Assembly (NCBI GenBank): GCA_016792765.1
Contig: JAEULD010000065.1
Span: 1-63,894, forward strand
Reading direction: 5' to 3'
Source: Candidatus Odyssella sp.
GTDB taxonomy: Bacteria; Pseudomonadota; Alphaproteobacteria; Bin65
DNA: 63,894 nucleotides
Positions 10,672-28,548 of this stretch are shown here, one piece after another. Under the pieces are notes generated by a model. The model did not search any database. It was not told the origin of the DNA and saw only the letters and a list, made by a program, of their open reading frames with translations. Numbering within the stretch: the stretch's first letter is position 1; every line of letters starts with the position of its first letter. The translations under genes were made by a program, and so were the position numbers.

Positions 10672-12213
10672 ATGCGCAATGCGGGGGCGATGGGAAGCGA
10701 TCGCGAATCCGAAACGCCGGCCGTGTGGCTGGAAGCCGTGATGGAGGCGGCGGTCGACGGCATCATCGCGATCGATGCCCGCGGGATCGTGCAGATCTAC
10801 AACAAGGCGTGCGAGCGCATCTTCGGCCACGCCGCCGCCGAGGTCCTCGGCCGCAACGTCAGCATGCTGATGCCGTCGCCCGACCGCGAGCGGCACGACG
10901 CCTACATCGGCGACTACCGGCGCACCGGCGTGCGCAAGATCGTCGGCATCGGCCGCGAGGTGACGGGCCTGCGCAAGGACGGCGCCACGTTCCCGATGGA
11001 GCTGTCCGTCGCCGAAGTGCACCGCGACGGCGAGCCCGCGTTCGTCGGCATCGTTCGCGACATCACCGCCCGCAAGGCCGCCGAGGCGGAGCTGCGCGAG
11101 CGCGAGACCCGGCTCCGCACCATTCTCGACACGGCCGCGGACGCCATCATCGTCATCGACGAGCGCGGCACGATCGAATCGTTCAGCGCCTCCGCGGTCC
11201 GCCTGTTCGGCTACGAGCCGAAAGAGGCGATCGGACGGAACGTCGGCGCGCTGATGCCGTCGCCGTATCGCGAGGAGCACGACCGCTACCTCCGCCGCTA
11301 TCTCGAAACCGGCGAACGCCGCATCATCGGCACCGGCCGCATCGTCGTCGGCCGCCGCAAGGACGGAACCACGTTTCCGATGGAGCTGTCGGTGGGCGAA
11401 AGCCGCCTCGCCGACCGGCGCGTGTTCACCGGCTTCATTCGCGACGTCTCCGAGCGCCAGCTGGCCGAGCGCCGCCTCCAGGAACTGCAGGCGCAGCTCG
11501 TTCACGTGTCGCGGGTCAGCGCGATGGGGGCCATGGCCTCGGCCTTCGCGCACGAGCTGAACCAGCCGCTCGGCGCCGCGATGAACTATCTCAGCGCCGT
11601 CCGGCGCTGGCTCGAGGAGAGCACCGAGGCGCGCGCGCCCAAGATGCTCGAGGGCACGCAGCGCGCGGCGGCCGAGATCGCGCGCGCCGCGCAGATCATC
11701 CAGCGCCTGCGCCAGTTCATCCAGAAAGGCCGCACCGATCGCGCGTGGGAGAAAGTCGGCACCGTCATCGAAGAGGCGGCCGCGCTGGCGCTGGTGGGGG
11801 CCGCCGACCGCAACATCGGCATCCACATCGAGATCGCGCCGAACCTGCCCGAGGCGATGATGGACAAGGTGCAGATCCAGCAGGTGCTGACGAACCTCAT
11901 CCGCAACGCGGTGGAGGCGATGGCCAACGCGCCGAAGCGGCGCCTCACCATCACCGGCCGGCAGACCGCGCCCGACGCGATCGAGATCGCGGTCGCCGAC
12001 AGCGGCCCCGGCATCGCGCCGCAGGTGGCCAGAGACCTGTTCAAGCCTTTCGTCACCACGAAACCCACCGGCATGGGCGTCGGCCTCTCGATCTGCCGGT
12101 CGATCGTGCAGAGCCACGGCGGCGAGCTGAAGCTGGAGCCGAATCCCGAAGGCGGCAGCATCTTCCGCTTCACGCTGCCGCTGAACGCGTCCGAGGCGCA
12201 GCCCGATGTCTGA
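10672..12213 (+). CDS. fixL: Oxygen sensor histidine kinase FixL with two heme-type PAS domains
   Basis: 513-residue soluble sensor kinase that phosphorylates FixJ when its heme loses O2. PAS1 spans about residues 17-135 and PAS2 about 140-262. Both carry the FixL heme signature, with the proximal His in a HDxY motif (His75, His203) and a distal Arg exactly 20 residues later in the FG loop (Arg95, Arg223). The kinase core follows: phosphoacceptor His294 in FAHELNQPL, N box IRNAVEAM and G boxes DSGPGIAP and MGVGLSI. No membrane segment is present. The start at 10672 has a poor ribosome-binding site; the ATG at 10690 (MGSDRES) is an alternative. It overlaps fixJ by 8 bp. Strong resemblance to Bradyrhizobium FixL from PAS2 onward. 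Confidence 0.93.
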   Translation: MRNAGAMGSDRESETPAVWLEAVMEAAVDGIIAIDARGIVQIYNKACERIFGHAAAEVLGRNVSMLMPSPDRERHDAYIGDYRRTGVRKIVGIGREVTGLRKDGATFPMELSVAEVHRDGEPAFVGIVRDITARKAAEAELRERETRLRTILDTAADAIIVIDERGTIESFSASAVRLFGYEPKEAIGRNVGALMPSPYREEHDRYLRRYLETGERRIIGTGRIVVGRRKDGTTFPMELSVGESRLADRRVFTGFIRDVSERQLAERRLQELQAQLVHVSRVSAMGAMASAFAHELNQPLGAAMNYLSAVRRWLEESTEARAPKMLEGTQRAAAEIARAAQIIQRLRQFIQKGRTDRAWEKVGTVIEEAAALALVGAADRNIGIHIEIAPNLPEAMMDKVQIQQVLTNLIRNAVEAMANAPKRRLTITGRQTAPDAIEIAVADSGPGIAPQVARDLFKPFVTTKPTGMGVGLSICRSIVQSHGGELKLEPNPEGGSIFRFTLPLNASEAQPDV

Positions 12214-12838
12214 TGCGGCGCGCGTCTTCGTCGTCGACGACGACCAGAGCATGCGCGAATCGCTGCGCTTCCTGCTCGAAGCCGCGGGCTTCGCGGTGGA
12301 AACCTTCGCCTCGGCGCGCGCTTTCCTCGATGCCGGCGGCGCGGCCAAGTCCGGCTGCCTCGTCGCCGACGTCCGCATGCCGGAAATGAACGGACTGGCG
12401 TTGCAGGAAAAGCTGGCGGCCGACGGATCGCGCCTGCCGGTCATCCTGATGACCGGCCATGCCGACGTGCCGATGGCGGTGAGCGCGATGCGGGCCGGCG
12501 CGGCCGATTTCATCGAGAAGCCGTTCGCCGACGAGGCGCTGATCGCCAGCATCCGCCGCGCGCTGGCGAGGGCGCCGGAGCGGGAACGGCCGGCGGCGCC
12601 CGCCGCCGTCCCGGCCGAGGTCGCGGAACGCATGGCCCGGCTCACGCCGCGCGAACGGGAGGTGCTCGATCACCTCGTGCGCGGCAGCCAGCACAAGGTC
12701 ATCGCGCACGAGCTCGGGATCAGCCCGCGCACGATCGAGGTGCATCGCGCGCACATCATGCAGAAGATGGAGGCGCGCAATCTCGCGCACCTCGTCCGGC
12801 TCGTGCTGTCCGGCGACGACGAGGCCGGCAAAGGTTGA
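12206..12838 (+). CDS. fixJ: Two-component response regulator FixJ
   Basis: 210-residue regulator that activates fixK-type promoters when phosphorylated by FixL. The receiver domain has the acidic triad DDD near residue 11, phosphoacceptor Asp55 (VADVRMPEMNG), Thr in LMTGHAD and Lys in IEKPF. The C-terminal LuxR-type HTH reads LTPREREVLDHLVRG..KVIAHELGISPRTIEVHRAHIMQKM, the standard FixJ output domain. It overlaps fixL by 8 bp, so they form one operon. Confidence 0.95.
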   Translation: MSDAARVFVVDDDQSMRESLRFLLEAAGFAVETFASARAFLDAGGAAKSGCLVADVRMPEMNGLALQEKLAADGSRLPVILMTGHADVPMAVSAMRAGAADFIEKPFADEALIASIRRALARAPERERPAAPAAVPAEVAERMARLTPREREVLDHLVRGSQHKVIAHELGISPRTIEVHRAHIMQKMEARNLAHLVRLVLSGDDEAGKG

Positions 12839-12984
12839 CGCCGCGCCGGGCCGTACGGGCAGGCCCCAATGGCCGCGCAAAGCTCTTTGCTCTATCCCGC
12901 TACCCGCCGGAACTGCGGCACCCTGTGGTCGGCAGACAAGGGTGGGCGCGCAGCGGCTGGCCGCGCAGCGAGCGGAGCAGGAGC

Positions 12985-13374
12985 GTGCCGTACAGCGGCT
13001 TCAGGATCATCGTCGTCGAGGACGATCCCGGCATGCGCGGTTCGCTCGAATTCCTGCTCGAGGCGCACGGCTTCGCCGTGGCGGCGTTCGCCGCGCTGGA
13101 CCACGTGCCGGAAGACCTCGTGCAGGGCTGGAGCTGCGCGATCCTCGACGTACATCTCGCCGGCGCCAACGGCATGGCGGTGTACGAGGTGTTGCGCGCC
13201 CGCGGCGGCGCGCTGCCGGCCATCTTCATCACGGGCCAGGCCGACGAAGCGATGCGCTTCCATGCCCGCCGCCTGAAGGCCGTCGCGCTGCTGGAAAAGC
13301 CCTTCTCGGACGACGCGCTGCTGGAAGCGGTCGGCCGCGCCCTGGCGGCCGCGGCAACGCCCGCCGCCGGCTGA
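12985..13374 (+). CDS. Single-domain response regulator (CheY-like) downstream of fixLJ
   Basis: 129-residue stand-alone receiver with no output domain: acidic pair EDD near residue 13, Asp55 (AILDVHLAG), Thr in FITGQAD and Lys in LLEKPF. It is most like the FixJ receiver (LEFLLEAHGFAV versus LRFLLEAAGFAV), so it probably arose by duplication of it. The start is the GTG at 12985, preceded by AGCAGGAGC; the frame is open to 12835 but the extra 50 residues lack family character. Possible roles are a phosphate sink or modulator of FixL, as described for single receivers in Caulobacter and rhizobia (inference). Confidence 0.82.
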   Translation: MPYSGFRIIVVEDDPGMRGSLEFLLEAHGFAVAAFAALDHVPEDLVQGWSCAILDVHLAGANGMAVYEVLRARGGALPAIFITGQADEAMRFHARRLKAVALLEKPFSDDALLEAVGRALAAAATPAAG

Positions 13375-17299: not shown

Positions 17300-17313
17300 T
17301 TGATCCAGGTCAA
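17300..17313. promoter_or_regulatory. FNR/FixK box between the LysR gene and hemN
   Basis: TTGAT-CCAG-GTCAA fits TTGAy-N4-rTCAA. Its centre (17306.5) is 41.5 bp before the hemN ATG and 113 bp before the LysR start. Class II spacing would put the hemN transcription start on the start codon itself. Confidence 0.8.
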
Positions 17314-17347: not shown

Positions 17348-18700
17348 ATGACGCCCGACCTCGTCCGCAAATACGCCAAGGCGGTGCCGCGGTATACGAG
17401 CTACCCGACGGCGCCGCATTTCCGCGCCGGCTTCGGCGCCGCGCGCGCCGGGCAGTGGCTCGAGGCGCTGCCGGCGCAGAGCCGGCTATCGCTCTATTTT
17501 CACGTCCCGTTCTGCCGCAGCCTGTGCTGGTTCTGCGGCTGCCATACCAAGGTCACCAACCGCGCGGCGCCGCTCGCGCGCTACCTCGACACGCTGCTGG
17601 CGGAGGTCGCGCTGGTGACGGCGCGCCTCGGCCGCGGCCGCCCGGTCGCGCACATCCATTTCGGCGGCGGCTCGCCCAGCCTGCTGTCGCCCGACGAGCT
17701 GAAGCGGCTGGCCGAGGCCCTGCATCGCAGCTTCGCGATCCTGCCGGGCGCCGAATTCGCGATCGAGATCGATCCGCGCAACATCGACGAAGGCCGCGCG
17801 CGGGCGCTGGCCGAGATCGGCGTCAATCGCGCGAGCCTCGGCGTGCAGGATTTCGACCCCGCCGTGCAGCGCGCGGTCAACCGCGTGCAGCCGCTCGAGC
17901 TGACCGCGCGGGTGGCGGGCCTGCTGCGCGGCAACGGCATCGCGCGGCTCAACCTCGATCTCATGTACGGCCTGCCGCTGCAGACGATCGGCGGATTCGT
18001 CGAGACCGTCGAGCGCGCGCTGGCGCTGGCCCCGGACCGGTTCGCGCTGTTCGGCTACGCGCACGTGCCGTGGATGAAGAAGCACCAGTCGCTGATCGAT
18101 GCGGCCGCGCTGCCCGATGCGTGGCAGCGCTGGTGCCAGGCGCGCGCCGCCGAACGCCGGCTCGCGGCGGCCGGCTACGCCGCGATCGGGCTCGATCACT
18201 TCGCGCGGCCCGAGGATCCGCTGGCGCGCGCCGCCGCCGCCGGCACGCTGCGCCGCAACTTCCAGGGCTACACCGCCGATCCCGCCGACGCGCTGATCGG
18301 CTTCGGCGCCTCGGCGATCGGCGCGCTGCCGCAGGGCTACCTGCAGAACGAGAGCGACCTCAAGGCCTATGCCGAAGCCGTCGCGGCGGGGCGCCCGGCG
18401 ATGGCGCGCGGAATCGCGTTCGCGCCCGAGGATCGCCTGCGCGCCGCGGTCATCGAAAAGCTGATGACGGCGCTCGCGGCCGATACCGGCGCGCTCTGCC
18501 GCGCGCACGGCTATCCCGAGGCGCATCTCGACGGGGCCTTCGCCGCGGTCGACGCGCTCGCCGCCGACGGCTTGGCCGAACGGCACGGGCGGGTCGTGTC
18601 GATCCCGCCCGAGGCCCGCCTGTTCATGCGCGCCGTCGCCGCGTGTTTCGACGCCTATCTCGCCCCCACCGCGGAGCCGCGCCACGCCCAGGCGGTGTAG
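17348..18700 (+). CDS. hemN: Oxygen-independent coproporphyrinogen III oxidase HemN
   Basis: 450-residue radical SAM enzyme that decarboxylates coproporphyrinogen III to protoporphyrinogen IX without O2, supplying heme when oxygen is scarce. The SAM-cluster cysteines are Cys56-x3-Cys60-x2-Cys63 followed by Cys65, exactly the HemN arrangement. Other landmarks are the opening VPRYTSYPTAPHF, IHFGGGSPSLL, EIDPR and LMYGLPLQT. The start is ATG 17348, the only start before the conserved N-terminus; it has no clear ribosome-binding site. The FNR box 41.5 bp upstream implies induction at low oxygen. Confidence 0.95.
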   Translation: MTPDLVRKYAKAVPRYTSYPTAPHFRAGFGAARAGQWLEALPAQSRLSLYFHVPFCRSLCWFCGCHTKVTNRAAPLARYLDTLLAEVALVTARLGRGRPVAHIHFGGGSPSLLSPDELKRLAEALHRSFAILPGAEFAIEIDPRNIDEGRARALAEIGVNRASLGVQDFDPAVQRAVNRVQPLELTARVAGLLRGNGIARLNLDLMYGLPLQTIGGFVETVERALALAPDRFALFGYAHVPWMKKHQSLIDAAALPDAWQRWCQARAAERRLAAAGYAAIGLDHFARPEDPLARAAAAGTLRRNFQGYTADPADALIGFGASAIGALPQGYLQNESDLKAYAEAVAAGRPAMARGIAFAPEDRLRAAVIEKLMTALAADTGALCRAHGYPEAHLDGAFAAVDALAADGLAERHGRVVSIPPEARLFMRAVAACFDAYLAPTAEPRHAQAV

Positions 18701-20132: not shown

Positions 20133-20146
20133 TTGATCTGCGTCAA
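20133..20146. promoter_or_regulatory. FNR/FixK box between the GNAT-usp operon and fnrN
   Basis: TTGAT-CTGC-GTCAA matches the FNR consensus. With class II spacing it would give leaders of about 40 nt for fnrN and 30 nt for the GNAT gene, so it may serve both directions and make fnrN autoregulated or FixK-controlled. Confidence 0.8.
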
Positions 20147-20220: not shown

Positions 20221-20991
20221 ATGTCGAACGTCGTAGCAAAACAGCTCGTTCAGCCGTTGCAGCGCGGCGTCGTGGCCGAGAACAATCCGTGCGCGGCCTG
20301 CCAGGTGCGCGATCTCAGCATCTGCGGCGCCATCGAGCCCGAGCACCTCGGCAAGCTCGACGCGATCGTCGTGCACAAGAAGCTGGTGCCGGGCGAGATC
20401 CTGTTCTTCGAGGGCGACCGCTCCGACAGCCTCTACATCATCACCGAGGGCTGCGTGCGCCTGTCCAAGATGCTGGCCGACGGGCGCCGCCAGATCACCG
20501 GCTTCCTGTTCCCGTCGGATTTCCTCGGGCTCGCGCTGCGCGAGCGCTATGCCTACAGCGCCGAGGCGGTGGATCCGGTGTTGCTCTGCCGCTATCCCAA
20601 GAACCGGCTCGAGGCGCTGCTCGACCAGTTCCCGGCGATGGAGCGGCGCCTGCTCGCCGTCGCCTCCAACGAGCTGGCGGCGGCGCAGGACCAGATGCTG
20701 CTGCTCGGGCGCAAGACGGCGCTGGAGCGCGTCGCCTCGTTCCTGATGATCCTGATGCGCCGCATGCAGCTCAAGGGCCGGCAGGACACCGTCTCGCTGC
20801 CGATGACGCGCACCGACATCGGCGACTATCTCGGCCTCACCATCGAAACGGTGAGCCGCAGCCTCTCGAAGCTGAAGCGCGACCGCATCGTGCGTTTCCT
20901 GACCGCGCAGGACATGCAGATCGTCGATCCGAAGCGCCTCGCCCAGCTCGCCGGCGCCGACGACGAGTGGAAGCCGACGACGACGCTGTGA
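20221..20991 (+). CDS. fnrN: Crp/Fnr family oxygen-sensing regulator, FnrN/FnrL type
   Basis: 256-residue FNR homologue that binds a [4Fe-4S] cluster and dimerises without O2. Cys24-x2-Cys27-x7-Cys35 at the N-terminus and Cys123 (LLCRYP) in the sensor domain form the cluster ligands. The HTH helix LTIETVSRSLSKLK reads TTGAT half-sites, the same as FixK. ATG 20221 is preferred; a GTG at 20212 is possible. Having both FixK (without cluster) and FnrN (with cluster) means low oxygen is sensed twice, through heme in FixL and through iron-sulfur here. Confidence 0.93.
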   Translation: MSNVVAKQLVQPLQRGVVAENNPCAACQVRDLSICGAIEPEHLGKLDAIVVHKKLVPGEILFFEGDRSDSLYIITEGCVRLSKMLADGRRQITGFLFPSDFLGLALRERYAYSAEAVDPVLLCRYPKNRLEALLDQFPAMERRLLAVASNELAAAQDQMLLLGRKTALERVASFLMILMRRMQLKGRQDTVSLPMTRTDIGDYLGLTIETVSRSLSKLKRDRIVRFLTAQDMQIVDPKRLAQLAGADDEWKPTTTL

Positions 20992-22437: not shown

Positions 22438-23862
22438 TCAGTCGACTCGCGCATAGGCGAACTCGATCGGCTGGTTGTTGATCCCGCGCGCCGGCGGCGC
22501 GATCCAGCTCGCGAATTTTCCGGGCTCGGTGACCGGCTTCATCAGCGACTGCACGAAGGCGTGATCCGCGTCGCCCGGCAGCCAGTCGGCGTGATGGCGC
22601 GTCCACTCCGCCTCGGTCAGCACGCGGCCCTCCGGGCTCACATGCAGCTGGGCGAAGGTGCCGATCTGGCGGTGGAAGGCCTTGTGCGGCAGGCGCAGGC
22701 GCTGGTTGGTGCCGCCCTTCTCGAGCACCTTGTTCCAGCGGTCGACGCCCTTCTGGCAATCGACGATGTAGTCGTCGCGCAGGCGCTCGTTGAGCGCGGT
22801 CAGCGCCGGCGCCTCGCGCACGACGATGGCGTCGCCGGCGAGATCCGGCACCGGATAGGTGGCGGTGGCGAGCCGGTGATCGTCCTTGAGCTTGGTTTCC
22901 TCGAAGCGCCCCTTGAGGCCCATCGTGAACGCGTTGGCGGCGTTGGTGGAAATCTCGCTGCCGTAGAGGTCCTCGGTCACGCTGATGTGGAAGTTGAGGT
23001 ATTTCTGGATCGTCGGGATGTCGATCGCGCCCTCGGACCGCACCTTCGCGGGATCGTCGGAGTTGATGCGCTTCATCACCTCGCAGGTCTTCTGGAGGAT
23101 GCGGCCGATGCCGGTTTCGCCGACGAAGAGGTGATGCGCCTCCTCGGTGAGCATGAACCGGCACGAGCGCGAGAGCGGATCGAAGCCCGATTCGGCGAGC
23201 GAGGCGAGCTGATACTTGCCGTCGCGGTCGGTCAGCATCGTGAAGAAGAAGAACGACAGCCAATCCGGCGTCTTCTCGTTGAAGGCGCCGAGGATGCGCG
23301 GGCGGTCGCTGTCGCCCGAGCGGCGCTCGAGCAGGCCCTCCGCCTCCTCGCGGCCGTCGCGGCCGAAATGCTTCATCAGCAGATAGACCATCGCCCAGAG
23401 ATGGCGGCCTTCCTCGACGTTCACCTGGAAGAGATTCCGCAGGTCGTAGAGCGAGGGGCAGGTGCGCCCGAGCTGGCGCTGCTGCTCGACCGAGGCGGGC
23501 TCGGTATCGCCCTGCGTCACGACCAGCCGGCGCAGCAGCGAGCGGTATTCGCCGGGCACGTCCTGCCACGCCGCCTCGCCCTTGTGGTCGCCGAAGTTCA
23601 CCTGGCGGTCCTTCTCGGGCGGCGTGAGGAAGATGCCCCAGCGGTAGTCGGGCATTTTCACGTAGCCGTACTGCGCCCATCCCTGCGGATCGACGCTGAT
23701 CGCGGTACGCAGATATACGTCCTTCGATTGGAAGCCTTCCGGCCCCATCTCGCGCCACCAGTCGAGATATTTCGGCTGCCAGCGCTCGAGGGCGCGCTGC
23801 AACTGCTTGTCGTCCGATAGGCTGACGTTGTTCGGAATGCGCTCGTTGTAGTTGATCGTCAT
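22438..23862 (-). CDS. boxB: Benzoyl-CoA 2,3-epoxidase oxygenase subunit BoxB
   Basis: 474-residue di-iron monooxygenase that converts benzoyl-CoA to its 2,3-epoxide, the step that removes aromaticity in the box pathway. Di-iron ligands of the family are visible in the helices NVEEGRHLWAM and LTEEAHHLF (E..H pairs), with nearby VTQGDTEPASVE and PDWLSFFFFTML. The length equals known BoxB. The start ATG at 23862 follows comparison with family N-termini (MTINYNERIPNN). An FNR box lies about 90 bp upstream, giving class II spacing with a leader near 49 nt, so transcription is probably raised at low oxygen. Confidence 0.94.
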   Translation of the reverse strand: MTINYNERIPNNVSLSDDKQLQRALERWQPKYLDWWREMGPEGFQSKDVYLRTAISVDPQGWAQYGYVKMPDYRWGIFLTPPEKDRQVNFGDHKGEAAWQDVPGEYRSLLRRLVVTQGDTEPASVEQQRQLGRTCPSLYDLRNLFQVNVEEGRHLWAMVYLLMKHFGRDGREEAEGLLERRSGDSDRPRILGAFNEKTPDWLSFFFFTMLTDRDGKYQLASLAESGFDPLSRSCRFMLTEEAHHLFVGETGIGRILQKTCEVMKRINSDDPAKVRSEGAIDIPTIQKYLNFHISVTEDLYGSEISTNAANAFTMGLKGRFEETKLKDDHRLATATYPVPDLAGDAIVVREAPALTALNERLRDDYIVDCQKGVDRWNKVLEKGGTNQRLRLPHKAFHRQIGTFAQLHVSPEGRVLTEAEWTRHHADWLPGDADHAFVQSLMKPVTEPGKFASWIAPPARGINNQPIEFAYARVD

Positions 23863-23945
23863 GTGGATCCCTTGGTTCCCCAGCCCCCGGCGCAAGCGGC
23901 CGGCGGCCCGCGGTCGGAACCTGCGCGAGACGGCACGGGGAGGCT

Positions 23946-23959
23946 TTGACCTGAATCAA
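23946..23959. promoter_or_regulatory. FNR/FixK box upstream of boxB
   Basis: TTGAC-CTGA-ATCAA fits TTGAy-N4-rTCAA, centred 90.5 bp before the boxB ATG. The only other gene nearby ends rather than starts here, so boxB is the target. Confidence 0.8.
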
Positions 23960-25150: not shown

Positions 25151-25164
25151 TTGACGTAGGTCAA
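25151..25164. promoter_or_regulatory. FNR/FixK box between the DUF2189 gene and ccoN
   Basis: TTGAC-GTAG-GTCAA matches the FNR consensus. Class II spacing would give a 39-nt leader for ccoN (ATG 25238) and about 32 nt for the divergent gene, so one site can drive both. Confidence 0.85.
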
Positions 25165-25237
25165 TGATCGGCACGCGTCGCCGACCTATTCGGGGGCATG
25201 CGCGCAGGGACGGCGCGCATCTTTCGGAGTGTCAGGC

Positions 25238-26719
25238 ATGCAATTGGCGGGAACTCTCGGGTCGGCGCAAACCGCGGCCGGGGCGGGCGAGCGCGTCGCC
25301 TACGACTACGGCGTGGTGCGGCTGTTCACCATCGCGACGGTGTTCTGGGGCGTCGCGGCCTTCTTGGCCGGCGTCTACATCGCGCTTCAGCTCGCATTTC
25401 CGGTGCTGAACCTCGATTTCGAATTCACGAGCTTCGGGCGGCTGCGCCCGCTGCACACGTCGGCCGCGGTCTTCGCGTTCGGCGGCAACGCGCTGTTCGC
25501 GACGTCGCTCTACGTCGTCCAGCGCACCTGCCGGGCGCCGCTCTGGGGCGGCCCGGCGGCGGCCGAGTTCCTGTTCTGGGGCTATCAGCTTTTCATCGTG
25601 ATGGCCGCCACCGGATACGTGCTCGGCATCACGCAGGGCCGCGAATACGCCGAGCCCGAATGGTACGTCGATATCTGGCTCACCCTCGTCTGGGTGCTCT
25701 ATTTCGCGATCTTCGTCGGCACGATCGTGCGGCGCAACGAGCCGCATATCTACGTCGCGAATTGGTTCTTCCTTGCGTTCATCATCACCGTCGCGGTCCT
25801 GCACCTCGGCAACAATCTCGCCGTGCCGGTGTCTCTGCTCGGCGCGAAGAGCTACTCGGTCTTCTCGGGCGTCCAGGACGCGCTGACCCAGTGGTGGTAC
25901 GGCCACAACGCGGTCGGCTTCTTCCTCACCGCCGGCTTCCTCGGCATCATGTACTACTTCGTGCCGAAGCGGGCCGACCGGCCGATCTATTCCTACCGCC
26001 TCTCGATCGTGCATTTCTGGTCGCTGATCTTCCTCTACATCTGGGCCGGGCCACATCACCTTCACTACACGGCGCTGCCCGACTGGGCGCAGAGCCTCGG
26101 CATGATGTTCTCGGTCATGCTGTGGATGCCGTCGTGGGGCGGCATGATCAACGGCCTGATGACGCTCTCGGGCGCGTGGGACAAGCTGCGCACCGATCCC
26201 GTGCTGCGCTTCATGGTCGCCTCCGTGGGATTCTACGGAATGAGCACGTTCGAGGGCCCGGTCATGTCGATCAAGGCCGTGAACGCGCTCAGCCACTACA
26301 CCGACTGGACGGTCGGCCACGTGCATTCGGGCGCGCTCGGCTGGGTCGCCTTCATCAGCTTCGGGGCCGTGTACTTCCTCGTGCCGAAGCTGTGGGGCAA
26401 GCGCGAACTGTGGTCGCTGAAGCTCGTCAGCTACCACTTCTGGATCTCGACGATCGGCATCGTGCTCTACATCACCGCGATGTGGGTGAGCGGCATCATG
26501 CAGGGCCTGATGTGGCGCGCCTACGACAAGCTCGGCTTCCTGCAGTACTCGTTCGCCGAGACCGTGGCCGCGATGCATCCCTACTACGTGATCCGCGCGA
26601 TGGGCGGCGTCCTGTTCCTGCTGGGCGCGCTGATCATGATCTACAACCTCGTCAAGACCGTTCGCGCCGGCGAGCCCGCGCGCGAGGAAGCGCCGGCGCC
26701 GGCGCCGGCGGCGGCCTGA
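25238..26719 (+). CDS. ccoN: cbb3-type cytochrome c oxidase subunit I (CcoN)
   Basis: 493-residue catalytic subunit with about 12-14 membrane helices, which holds the low-spin and high-spin hemes b and CuB and reduces O2 with very high affinity. Metal-ligand regions include [51 protein letters not shown], and [17 protein letters not shown]. The ATG at 25238 has a well-spaced GGAGTG; a GTG at 25229 is in frame but worse spaced. First gene of ccoNOQPGHIS. An Ala/Pro tail closes the protein. Confidence 0.97.
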
Positions 26720-26732
26720 AGGAGCCCGAGCC

Positions 26733-27458
26733 ATGAAGTTCAAGCACGCGCTCCTCGAGCGGAACGTCGTCCTCCTCGCGATCGGCATCGTCGTCACGAT
26801 CGCCATCGGCGGCCTCGTCGAAATCGTTCCGCTGCACACGATCAAGTCGACGATCGAGCCGGTGCAGGGCGTGCGGCCCTACACGCCGCTCGAGCTCGCC
26901 GGCCGCAACATCTACATGCGCGAGGGCTGCTACAACTGCCACAGCCAGATGGTGCGGCCGTTCCGCGACGAGGTCGAGCGCTACGGCCATTACAGCCTCG
27001 CCGCGGAGAGCATGTACGACCATCCGTTCCAATGGGGGTCGAAGCGCACCGGGCCCGATCTCGCCCGCGTCGGCGGCAAGTACTCGAACGAATGGCACGT
27101 CGCGCATTTCAAGGACCCGCGCGCGGTGGTGCCCGAATCGATCATGCCGACCTACGGCTTCCTCGCGCGGCGCGATCTCGCCATCAAGGACATCGCCGCG
27201 CACCTCAAGGCGTTGCGCGCGGTCGGCGTTCCCTACACCGACGACATGGTCAAGAACGCGGCCGCCGACCTCGCGGCGCAGGCCGATCCCGAGGCCGACA
27301 CCAAGGGGCTGACCGACCGCTACCCCAAGGCCGCGCTCGGCGATTTCGACGGCGATCCCAAGCGTCTCACCGAGATGGACGCGATCATCGCCTACATGCA
27401 GATCCTGGGCCGCATGGTCGATTTCAAGACCGTGAAGCCCGAGCAGTTGCGGCAGTAG
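26733..27458 (+). CDS. ccoO: cbb3-type cytochrome c oxidase subunit II (CcoO)
   Basis: 241-residue membrane-anchored monoheme cytochrome c. One N-terminal helix (about residues 11-33) and the heme site Cys66-Tyr-Asn-Cys69-His70; the axial Met is probably in the segment around IMPTYGFL. It relays electrons from CcoP to CcoN. It follows ccoN by 13 bp. Confidence 0.96.
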
Positions 27459-27467
27459 GGGCGCGCC

Positions 27468-27662
27468 ATGGCCGAATTCTACGCCGACATCAAATCGCTC
27501 TGGGTCGTCTGGCTCATGGGCGCCTTCCTCGCCATCGCGGTGTGGGCCTACTGGCCGCGCAACAAGGGCCGGCTCCAGGCGCATGCGCGCATTCCGCTGG
27601 ACGACGACGAGCGACAGCCGGGCGCTCTTCCCGTCGCGCCGCCGCACAACGCAAAGCCTTAA
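27468..27662 (+). CDS. ccoQ: cbb3-type oxidase small subunit CcoQ
   Basis: 64-residue single-helix protein with the CcoQ pattern: a short N-terminus, a helix at about residues 11-29 (WVVWLMGAFLAIAVWAYWP) and a charged tail. It stabilises the CcoNOP complex. It lies 9 bp after ccoO and 10 bp before ccoP. Confidence 0.93.
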   Translation: MAEFYADIKSLWVVWLMGAFLAIAVWAYWPRNKGRLQAHARIPLDDDERQPGALPVAPPHNAKP

Positions 27663-27672
27663 GGCCGCCGCC

Positions 27673-28548
27673 ATGCCGACGAAAACCGAGAAAGAGCTCT
27701 ATCAGGGCAAGCCCACCACCGGACACGAGTGGGACGGCATCCGGGAGCTCGACACGCCGCTGCCGAAATGGTGGGTCTACGTGCTCTATGCGTCGATCGC
27801 GTGGGCCGTGGTCTATTTCATCCTCTATCCGTCGGTGCCGTGGTTCACCGGCTACTTCAAGGGCGTGCTGGGGTGGAACTCGCGCGCCGAGGTGGCCGAG
27901 AAGATCGACGAGGCGAAGCGCGGCCAGTCGCGCTACCTCGACCGCATCAAGACCCAGTCGGCCGACGAGATCCGCCGCGAGCCCGACCTGCTGAACTTCG
28001 CGCTGGCCGGCGGCAAGGCCGCGTTCGCCGACAATTGCGCGCCGTGCCACGGCGCGGGCGGCGCGGGCACCAAGGGCTTCCCCTCGCTGGCCGACGACCT
28101 CTGGATCTGGGGCGGCAAGCTGGCGGACATCGAGCAGACGCTCCGCTTCGGCATCCGGAGCGGCCACGAGAAGGCGCGCAGCAGCCAGATGCCGGCCTAC
28201 GGCACCGACGGCGCGCTGAAGCCCGATCAGATCGGCGACGTGGCGGAATACGTATTGTCGCTCACCGGCCGCAGCGCCGACAAGGCGGCGGCCGAGCGCG
28301 GCGCCAAGATCTTCGCCGAGGAAGACAAGTGCATCTCGTGCCACGGCAAGGACGGGGTCGGTAAGGCCGATCTCGGCGCGCCGCCGCTCAACACGCGCAT
28401 CTTCCTCTACGGCGGCAGCAAGGCCGAAATCGTCCGGCAGGTGACGAAGCCGCAGCACGGCGTCATGCCGGCCTGGGCGGGTCGCCTCGACGACGAGACG
28501 ATCAAGATGCTGACGCTCTACGTCCACGCGCTGGGCGGCGGAAAGTAG
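27673..28548 (+). CDS. ccoP: cbb3-type cytochrome c oxidase subunit III (CcoP)
   Basis: 291-residue diheme cytochrome c that accepts electrons from soluble cytochromes. It has a cytoplasmic N-terminus with the family TTGHEWDGIRELDTPLPKWW motif, a membrane helix at about residues 35-53, then two heme sites, Cys122-x2-Cys125-His126 and Cys220-x2-Cys223-His224. The ATG at 27673 agrees with family N-termini. It ends 2 bp before ccoG. Confidence 0.96.
   Translation: MPTKTEKELYQGKPTTGHEWDGIRELDTPLPKWWVYVLYASIAWAVVYFILYPSVPWFTGYFKGVLGWNSRAEVAEKIDEAKRGQSRYLDRIKTQSADEIRREPDLLNFALAGGKAAFADNCAPCHGAGGAGTKGFPSLADDLWIWGGKLADIEQTLRFGIRSGHEKARSSQMPAYGTDGALKPDQIGDVAEYVLSLTGRSADKAAAERGAKIFAEEDKCISCHGKDGVGKADLGAPPLNTRIFLYGGSKAEIVRQVTKPQHGVMPAWAGRLDDETIKMLTLYVHALGGGK

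Follow-up and report, generated by a model that had tools for sequence, protein, structure and literature searches.

The textbook example of a heme oxygen sensor is FixL, which in Sinorhizobium meliloti is a membrane-anchored kinase with a single heme-PAS domain. Dual PAS-heme sensing of O2 is already known as a principle from Vibrio cholerae Aer2, a chemoreceptor with an MCP signalling domain that Greer-Phillips reportedly described in 2018 as a 'dual PAS-heme oxygen sensor'. Published work on FixL places its heme in PAS-B (PMC12116688, PMC8534201), which matches the premise of an earlier note on the DNA analysed here, that heme is confined to the second PAS domain of characterised FixL proteins. 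In the soluble, two-PAS FixL of Bradyrhizobium japonicum, O2 is sensed by the heme in PAS-B (PMC12116688). The contribution of the first PAS domain is unsettled in the FixL papers cited, and a natural class in which both domains are heme-type would let the question be asked directly.

The window, the whole 63,894-nucleotide stretch from Candidatus Odyssella sp. that was analysed, carries a fixL-type gene that translates into 513 aa with zero internal stops. Pfam identified two PAS domains, HisKA and HATPase_c, and from its sequence the protein is apparently soluble, without a membrane anchor. The features of the kinase are as follows:

10672-12213, plus strand: fixL-type sensor histidine kinase gene, 513 aa, PAS1-PAS2-DHp-CA
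10726-11085, plus strand: PAS1, predicted heme-type (aa 19-138; Pfam PAS, match to the BjFixL heme domain, AlphaFold2 and Foldseek)
10894-10896, plus strand: His75, predicted PAS1 proximal heme ligand, equivalent to BjFixL H200 by sequence alignment
10954-10956, plus strand: Arg95, predicted PAS1 distal Arg, equivalent to BjFixL R220 by sequence alignment
11065-11133, plus strand: predicted continuous helix linking PAS1 to PAS2 (aa 132-154; AlphaFold2 model and conserved His-His spacing)
11110-11469, plus strand: PAS2, predicted heme-type, in the canonical FixL PAS-B position (aa 147-266; Pfam PAS and alignment)
11278-11280, plus strand: His203, predicted PAS2 proximal heme ligand (sequence alignment)
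11338-11340, plus strand: Arg223, predicted PAS2 distal Arg (sequence alignment)
11551-11553, plus strand: His294, in AHELNQP, site of predicted autophosphorylation, at the canonical FixL spacing of 91 residues C-terminal to the PAS2 His
11863-12186, plus strand: HATPase_c catalytic domain (PF02518)

The heme-PAS adjoining the kinase is of FixL type (PAS2, H203/R223; SmFixL E = 2e-41, BjFixL E = 7e-41), FixL-type DHp (AHELNQP) and CA domains were both found, and the spacing of 91 between the PAS2 His and the kinase His is that of most single-heme and tandem FixLs. With B. japonicum FixL the protein shares its apparent solubility, two PAS domains, a heme-type second PAS, the same kinase, the PAS2-kinase spacing and a fixJ partner, and with S. 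meliloti FixL the heme-PAS signature and kinase. It differs from the former in that both PAS domains are heme-type, and from the latter in having two such domains and no apparent anchor. Like Aer2, it combines two PAS domains with heme-ligand signatures in one O2 sensor, heme being predicted here; its output is HisKA/HATPase, which puts it outside the Aer2 family despite a similar principle. The NCBIfam rhizobial FixL equivalog NF041777 scored 615.6 bits (best stretch aa 130-507) against a cut-off of 850, placing the protein outside that equivalog, and it is classed as FixL-type by other sequence criteria (heme-PAS, DHp/CA, spacing and adjacent fixJ).

The earlier note had proposed that both PAS domains keep a proximal His followed exactly 20 residues on by a distal Arg, within common MPSP and RKDG-x-TFPMELS surroundings. 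A script confirmed this numbering, and both stretches were located in both domains: the core reads MPSPDRERH75DAYIGDYRRTGVRKIVGIGR95EVTGLRKDGATFPMELS in PAS1 and MPSPYREEH203DRYLRRYLETGERRIIGTGR223IVVGRRKDGTTFPMELS in PAS2. Alignment with Bradyrhizobium FixL, a check proposed in that note, gave 55% identity to BjFixL PAS-B for PAS1 and 56% for PAS2. Searched by itself, PAS1 matched the BjFixL heme domain without gaps (E = 7e-36), a similarity far beyond chance, followed by the SmFixL and DosP heme domains. Against 8js5, a solved BjFixL construct with both PAS domains, PAS1 aligned with PAS-B only and not with PAS-A. Structure prediction, the second proposed check, agreed: AlphaFold2 modelled PAS1 with a pLDDT of 92.7, and the top 20 PDB matches of this model in Foldseek were all FixL PAS structures (rmsd 0.7-1.3 Å). 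By sequence, PAS1 thus reads as a genuine FixL heme-PAS rather than a standard PAS that happens to contain a His, and both domains have a complete FixL heme-PAS signature together with the predicted fold.

In the full-length model the His helices (residues 71-85 in PAS1, 199-213 in PAS2) lie in register 128 residues apart, and the Arg strands (95-100 and 223-228) follow the same register, while the PAS1 FG loop (89-93) was poorly modelled. The overall pTM was only 0.45, leaving the arrangement of the domains uncertain. A His-His spacing of 128-130 was found in 39 of 42 FixL-type pairs.

A weak point of PAS1 is Asp81, which takes the place of the heme-propionate Arg (BjFixL R206, SmFixL R200) and is rare among PAS1 domains; several other PAS1 consensus positions also deviate. 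The substitution appears tolerable, because SmFixL R200E has heme spectra like the wild type (PMC10765370) and the BjFixL structure 2cmn, with Ala at this position, is among the matches to the PAS1 model. As SmFixL R200 variants autoxidise in air (PMC10765370), Asp81 could make a PAS1 heme more easily oxidised.

These deviations would fit a protein that carries heme only in PAS2 in the cell, PAS1 being an inherited heme-PAS, now structural, dimerising or a relay, with its pocket empty or partly filled. A heme-free PAS is evidently workable in this place, since other FixLs (e.g. L031 and L167-L170) lack the His in the PAS preceding the heme PAS. The conservation of PAS1 bears on this possibility. 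In a domain tree, a PAS1-type clade of 67 tips (support 0.91) contained 37 tandem PAS1 domains, and His and Arg were both kept in 66 of the 67. Membership of this clade was defined by the tree and not by His/Arg, whereas the tandem set was picked by those residues, so that the 100% His/Arg within the tandem set is circular. The exception, L209, has lost the entire His segment, as might be expected if PAS1 can do without heme. Against this, the full PAS1 pocket signature is retained despite a divergence of about 40% from other PAS1 domains, and across many lineages. Some FixL-like kinases, moreover, have a member of this clade as their only heme-type PAS, and in L037, L060, L063 and L083 the PAS1-type domain is the intact one beside a PAS2 that has lost its His or both residues. 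We therefore consider an in-cell heme restricted to PAS2 unlikely.

Alternatively, a heme in PAS1 might report a signal other than that read by PAS2, such as NO, CO, redox or heme-supply state. Systematic differences between the domains (Asn44 versus Ser172, a Glu after the Arg, Ile127 versus Phe255) suggest different tuning, and Asp81 could favour autoxidation by comparison with the SmFixL R200 variants. However, the PAS1 clade keeps the O2-stabilising distal Arg of FixL as well as the distal Ile and Leu positions, and we regard a separate signal as quite improbable. The preferred reading is that two hemes per monomer are likely, as predicted from sequence.

PAS2 domains clustered with canonical FixL PAS-B in the domain tree. 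The two domains fall in separate clades, indicating that they are old and separately maintained. A recent duplication within the gene was rejected, as PAS1 and PAS2 are only 48% identical in protein (about 66% in DNA) and belong to different clades.

To place the kinase among its relatives, the His and Arg columns were read across all fetched loci with a heme-PAS domain profile. Most FixL kinases have a single His/Arg PAS, adjoining the kinase. About 40 FixL-type kinases have two adjacent ones, from Azospirillum, other Azospirillaceae and Rhodospirillales MAGs; the set includes 29 loci from genome family f52, further genomes of families f61 and f15, and named Azospirillum plasmids. Family f52 was taken as Azospirillaceae because its G441 locus is identical to plasmid pAB510b of Azospirillum sp. 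B510. The locus of G285, a genome of the same class as the window genome, is identical to that of a Rhodospirillales MAG. Among 385 genomes sampled across the class, at least 15 had a tandem, five of them FixL-type. The Azospirillum proteins (A. argentinense, A. lipoferum 4B, B510), annotated 'PAS domain-containing sensor histidine kinase', are about 56-57% identical to the window protein over their full length and have two heme-type PAS domains. Their genes are followed by a response regulator and a receiver, as in the window, with an HTH regulator also present in lipoferum and B510; they lie on large plasmids and do not group with the window FixL in a PAS2-kinase tree.

The window tandem is thus not unique. 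Recurrence of the layout across Azospirillum and several other groups suggests a real, not one-off, version of FixL. The earlier note's overall reading is borne out in part: sequence, model and relatives give good support for two heme-type PAS domains in tandem, but the arrangement recurs in Azospirillaceae and several other lineages and so does not set this gene apart. A literature search, most subscription journals lying outside its scope, found neither a description of a two-heme FixL nor a heme measurement for the window protein or its tandem relatives. A fixLJ-fixK cluster is reported for A. amazonense in passages that make no mention of two hemes (PMC3169532). The tandem heme-PAS FixL is apparently a form of this well-known sensor that has yet to be described.

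Tandem FixLs split into six groups in the PAS2-kinase tree, so repeated gain or loss of the architecture is probable. A single origin is unsupported, the strongly supported branches forcing at least three changes. The window protein stands apart from the Azospirillum proteins on a long branch, which makes its position unsure. None of ten genomes of the same genus and family (G001-G010, two of them only about 75% complete) had a FixL match at E <= 1e-40, so the locus has perhaps been gained or lost patchily.

The gene order at the locus is fixL-fixJ-receiver-fixK, and the predicted targets (cbb3 oxidase, hemN, fnrL and boxB), a setting that the earlier note leaves out, lie nearby on the same contig:

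12206-12838, plus strand: fixJ response regulator (REC-LuxR; NF006900, 277.1 bits, over the cut-off of 255)
12934-13374, plus strand: single-domain receiver, start uncertain (Response_reg; same place in related plasmid loci)
13554-14255, plus strand: fixK-type Crp/Fnr regulator, without the N-terminal Cys cluster (FNR cysteines)
17300-17313, plus strand: FixK/FNR box, about 35 bp upstream of the hemN start (17348)
17348-18700, plus strand: hemN, oxygen-independent coproporphyrinogen III oxidase (TIGR00538)
20133-20146, plus strand: FixK/FNR box upstream of fnrL
20221-20991, plus strand: FnrL-type Crp/Fnr regulator with a CxxC...C cluster
23946-23959, plus strand: FixK/FNR box upstream of boxB (boxB on the minus strand, 22438-23895)
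25151-25164, plus strand: FixK/FNR box, about 65 bp upstream of the ccoN ORF
25229-28548, plus strand: ccoN, ccoO and ccoP (cbb3 oxidase), then ccoG and a CcoI-like Cu ATPase, up to 32799

The fixL-fixJ-receiver order is kept on plasmids of Azospirillum, Methylobacterium, Sphingopyxis, Qipengyuania and Caulobacter, some with a nearby HTH regulator. The window receiver has weak similarity to FixT, an intact phosphoacceptor Asp and only one Cys, and could possibly act as a phosphate sink or feedback part. Four FixK/FNR boxes were found in the window against 0.04 expected, three of them preceding hemN, fnrL and ccoN; the boxes do not distinguish FixK from FnrL. Control of cco and hemN by FixK has been described in Alphaproteobacteria (PMC4999443). 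A role in nitrogen fixation was not supported, no nifH scoring above the cut-off in the window genome (92.8% complete), and the kinase is likely to control microaerobic respiration.

Taken together, the best explanation, which we hold to be probable, is a FixL-type O2-sensing kinase with two heme-PAS domains in series that controls low-oxygen respiration through FixJ and FixK. Each PAS would bind heme b, with His75 or His203 as the ligand, and bound O2 would be stabilised by Arg95 in PAS1 or Arg223 in PAS2. PAS2 is most likely the kinase switch, as in classical FixL, because its heme-His lies at the conserved distance of 91 from the phospho-His. PAS1 would most likely provide a second oxygen input through the connecting helix and in this way tune the affinity or cooperativity of the response. 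As O2 drops, the deoxy form would autophosphorylate on His294 and pass the phosphate to the adjacent FixJ, which would induce FixK; FixK would then act at the boxes of the cbb3 oxidase, hemN, fnrL and possibly boxB, setting up low-oxygen respiration. A widened or sharpened O2 response, as the earlier note envisaged, is conjecture that goes beyond what a sequence can tell. We propose tentatively, at somewhat less than even odds, that a widespread, undescribed FixL class in Azospirillum and relatives controls microaerobic respiration and carries two hemes per monomer whose O2 affinities differ between PAS1 and PAS2, so that the kinase would read oxygen more broadly or more cooperatively than classical FixL does. 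Such a two-site class offers a way to ask whether serial sensors shift the threshold or the steepness of an oxygen response, and Azospirillum is a tractable plant-associated genus in which to do so.

Two further sets of observations were made. First, boxB encodes a benzoyl-CoA 2,3-epoxidase, and the FixK/FNR-type box directly upstream suggests that an aromatic pathway which uses oxygen could be controlled by low oxygen. Second, heme-type PAS arrays varied among the fetched loci. Many hybrid kinases share the tandem, and tandem or triple heme-type PAS domains were seen in hybrid as well as other kinases (L110, L117, L201-L206, L212, L250), with three in a row in the kinases at L117 4001-5134 (Andreprevotia lacus) and L250 (same phylum, other class). 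The FixL-like kinase of L191 has a pair of heme-type PAS domains with 87% identity to each other, apparently through a recent independent duplication. An L022 ORF from about 1405 (plus strand, 305 aa) has two heme-type PAS domains without a kinase and is possibly frameshifted or truncated. Finally, the FixL-type proteins of L060, L063, L083 and L037 keep the heme signature intact in PAS1 and have lost it from PAS2 (His or both residues), the reverse of classical FixL.
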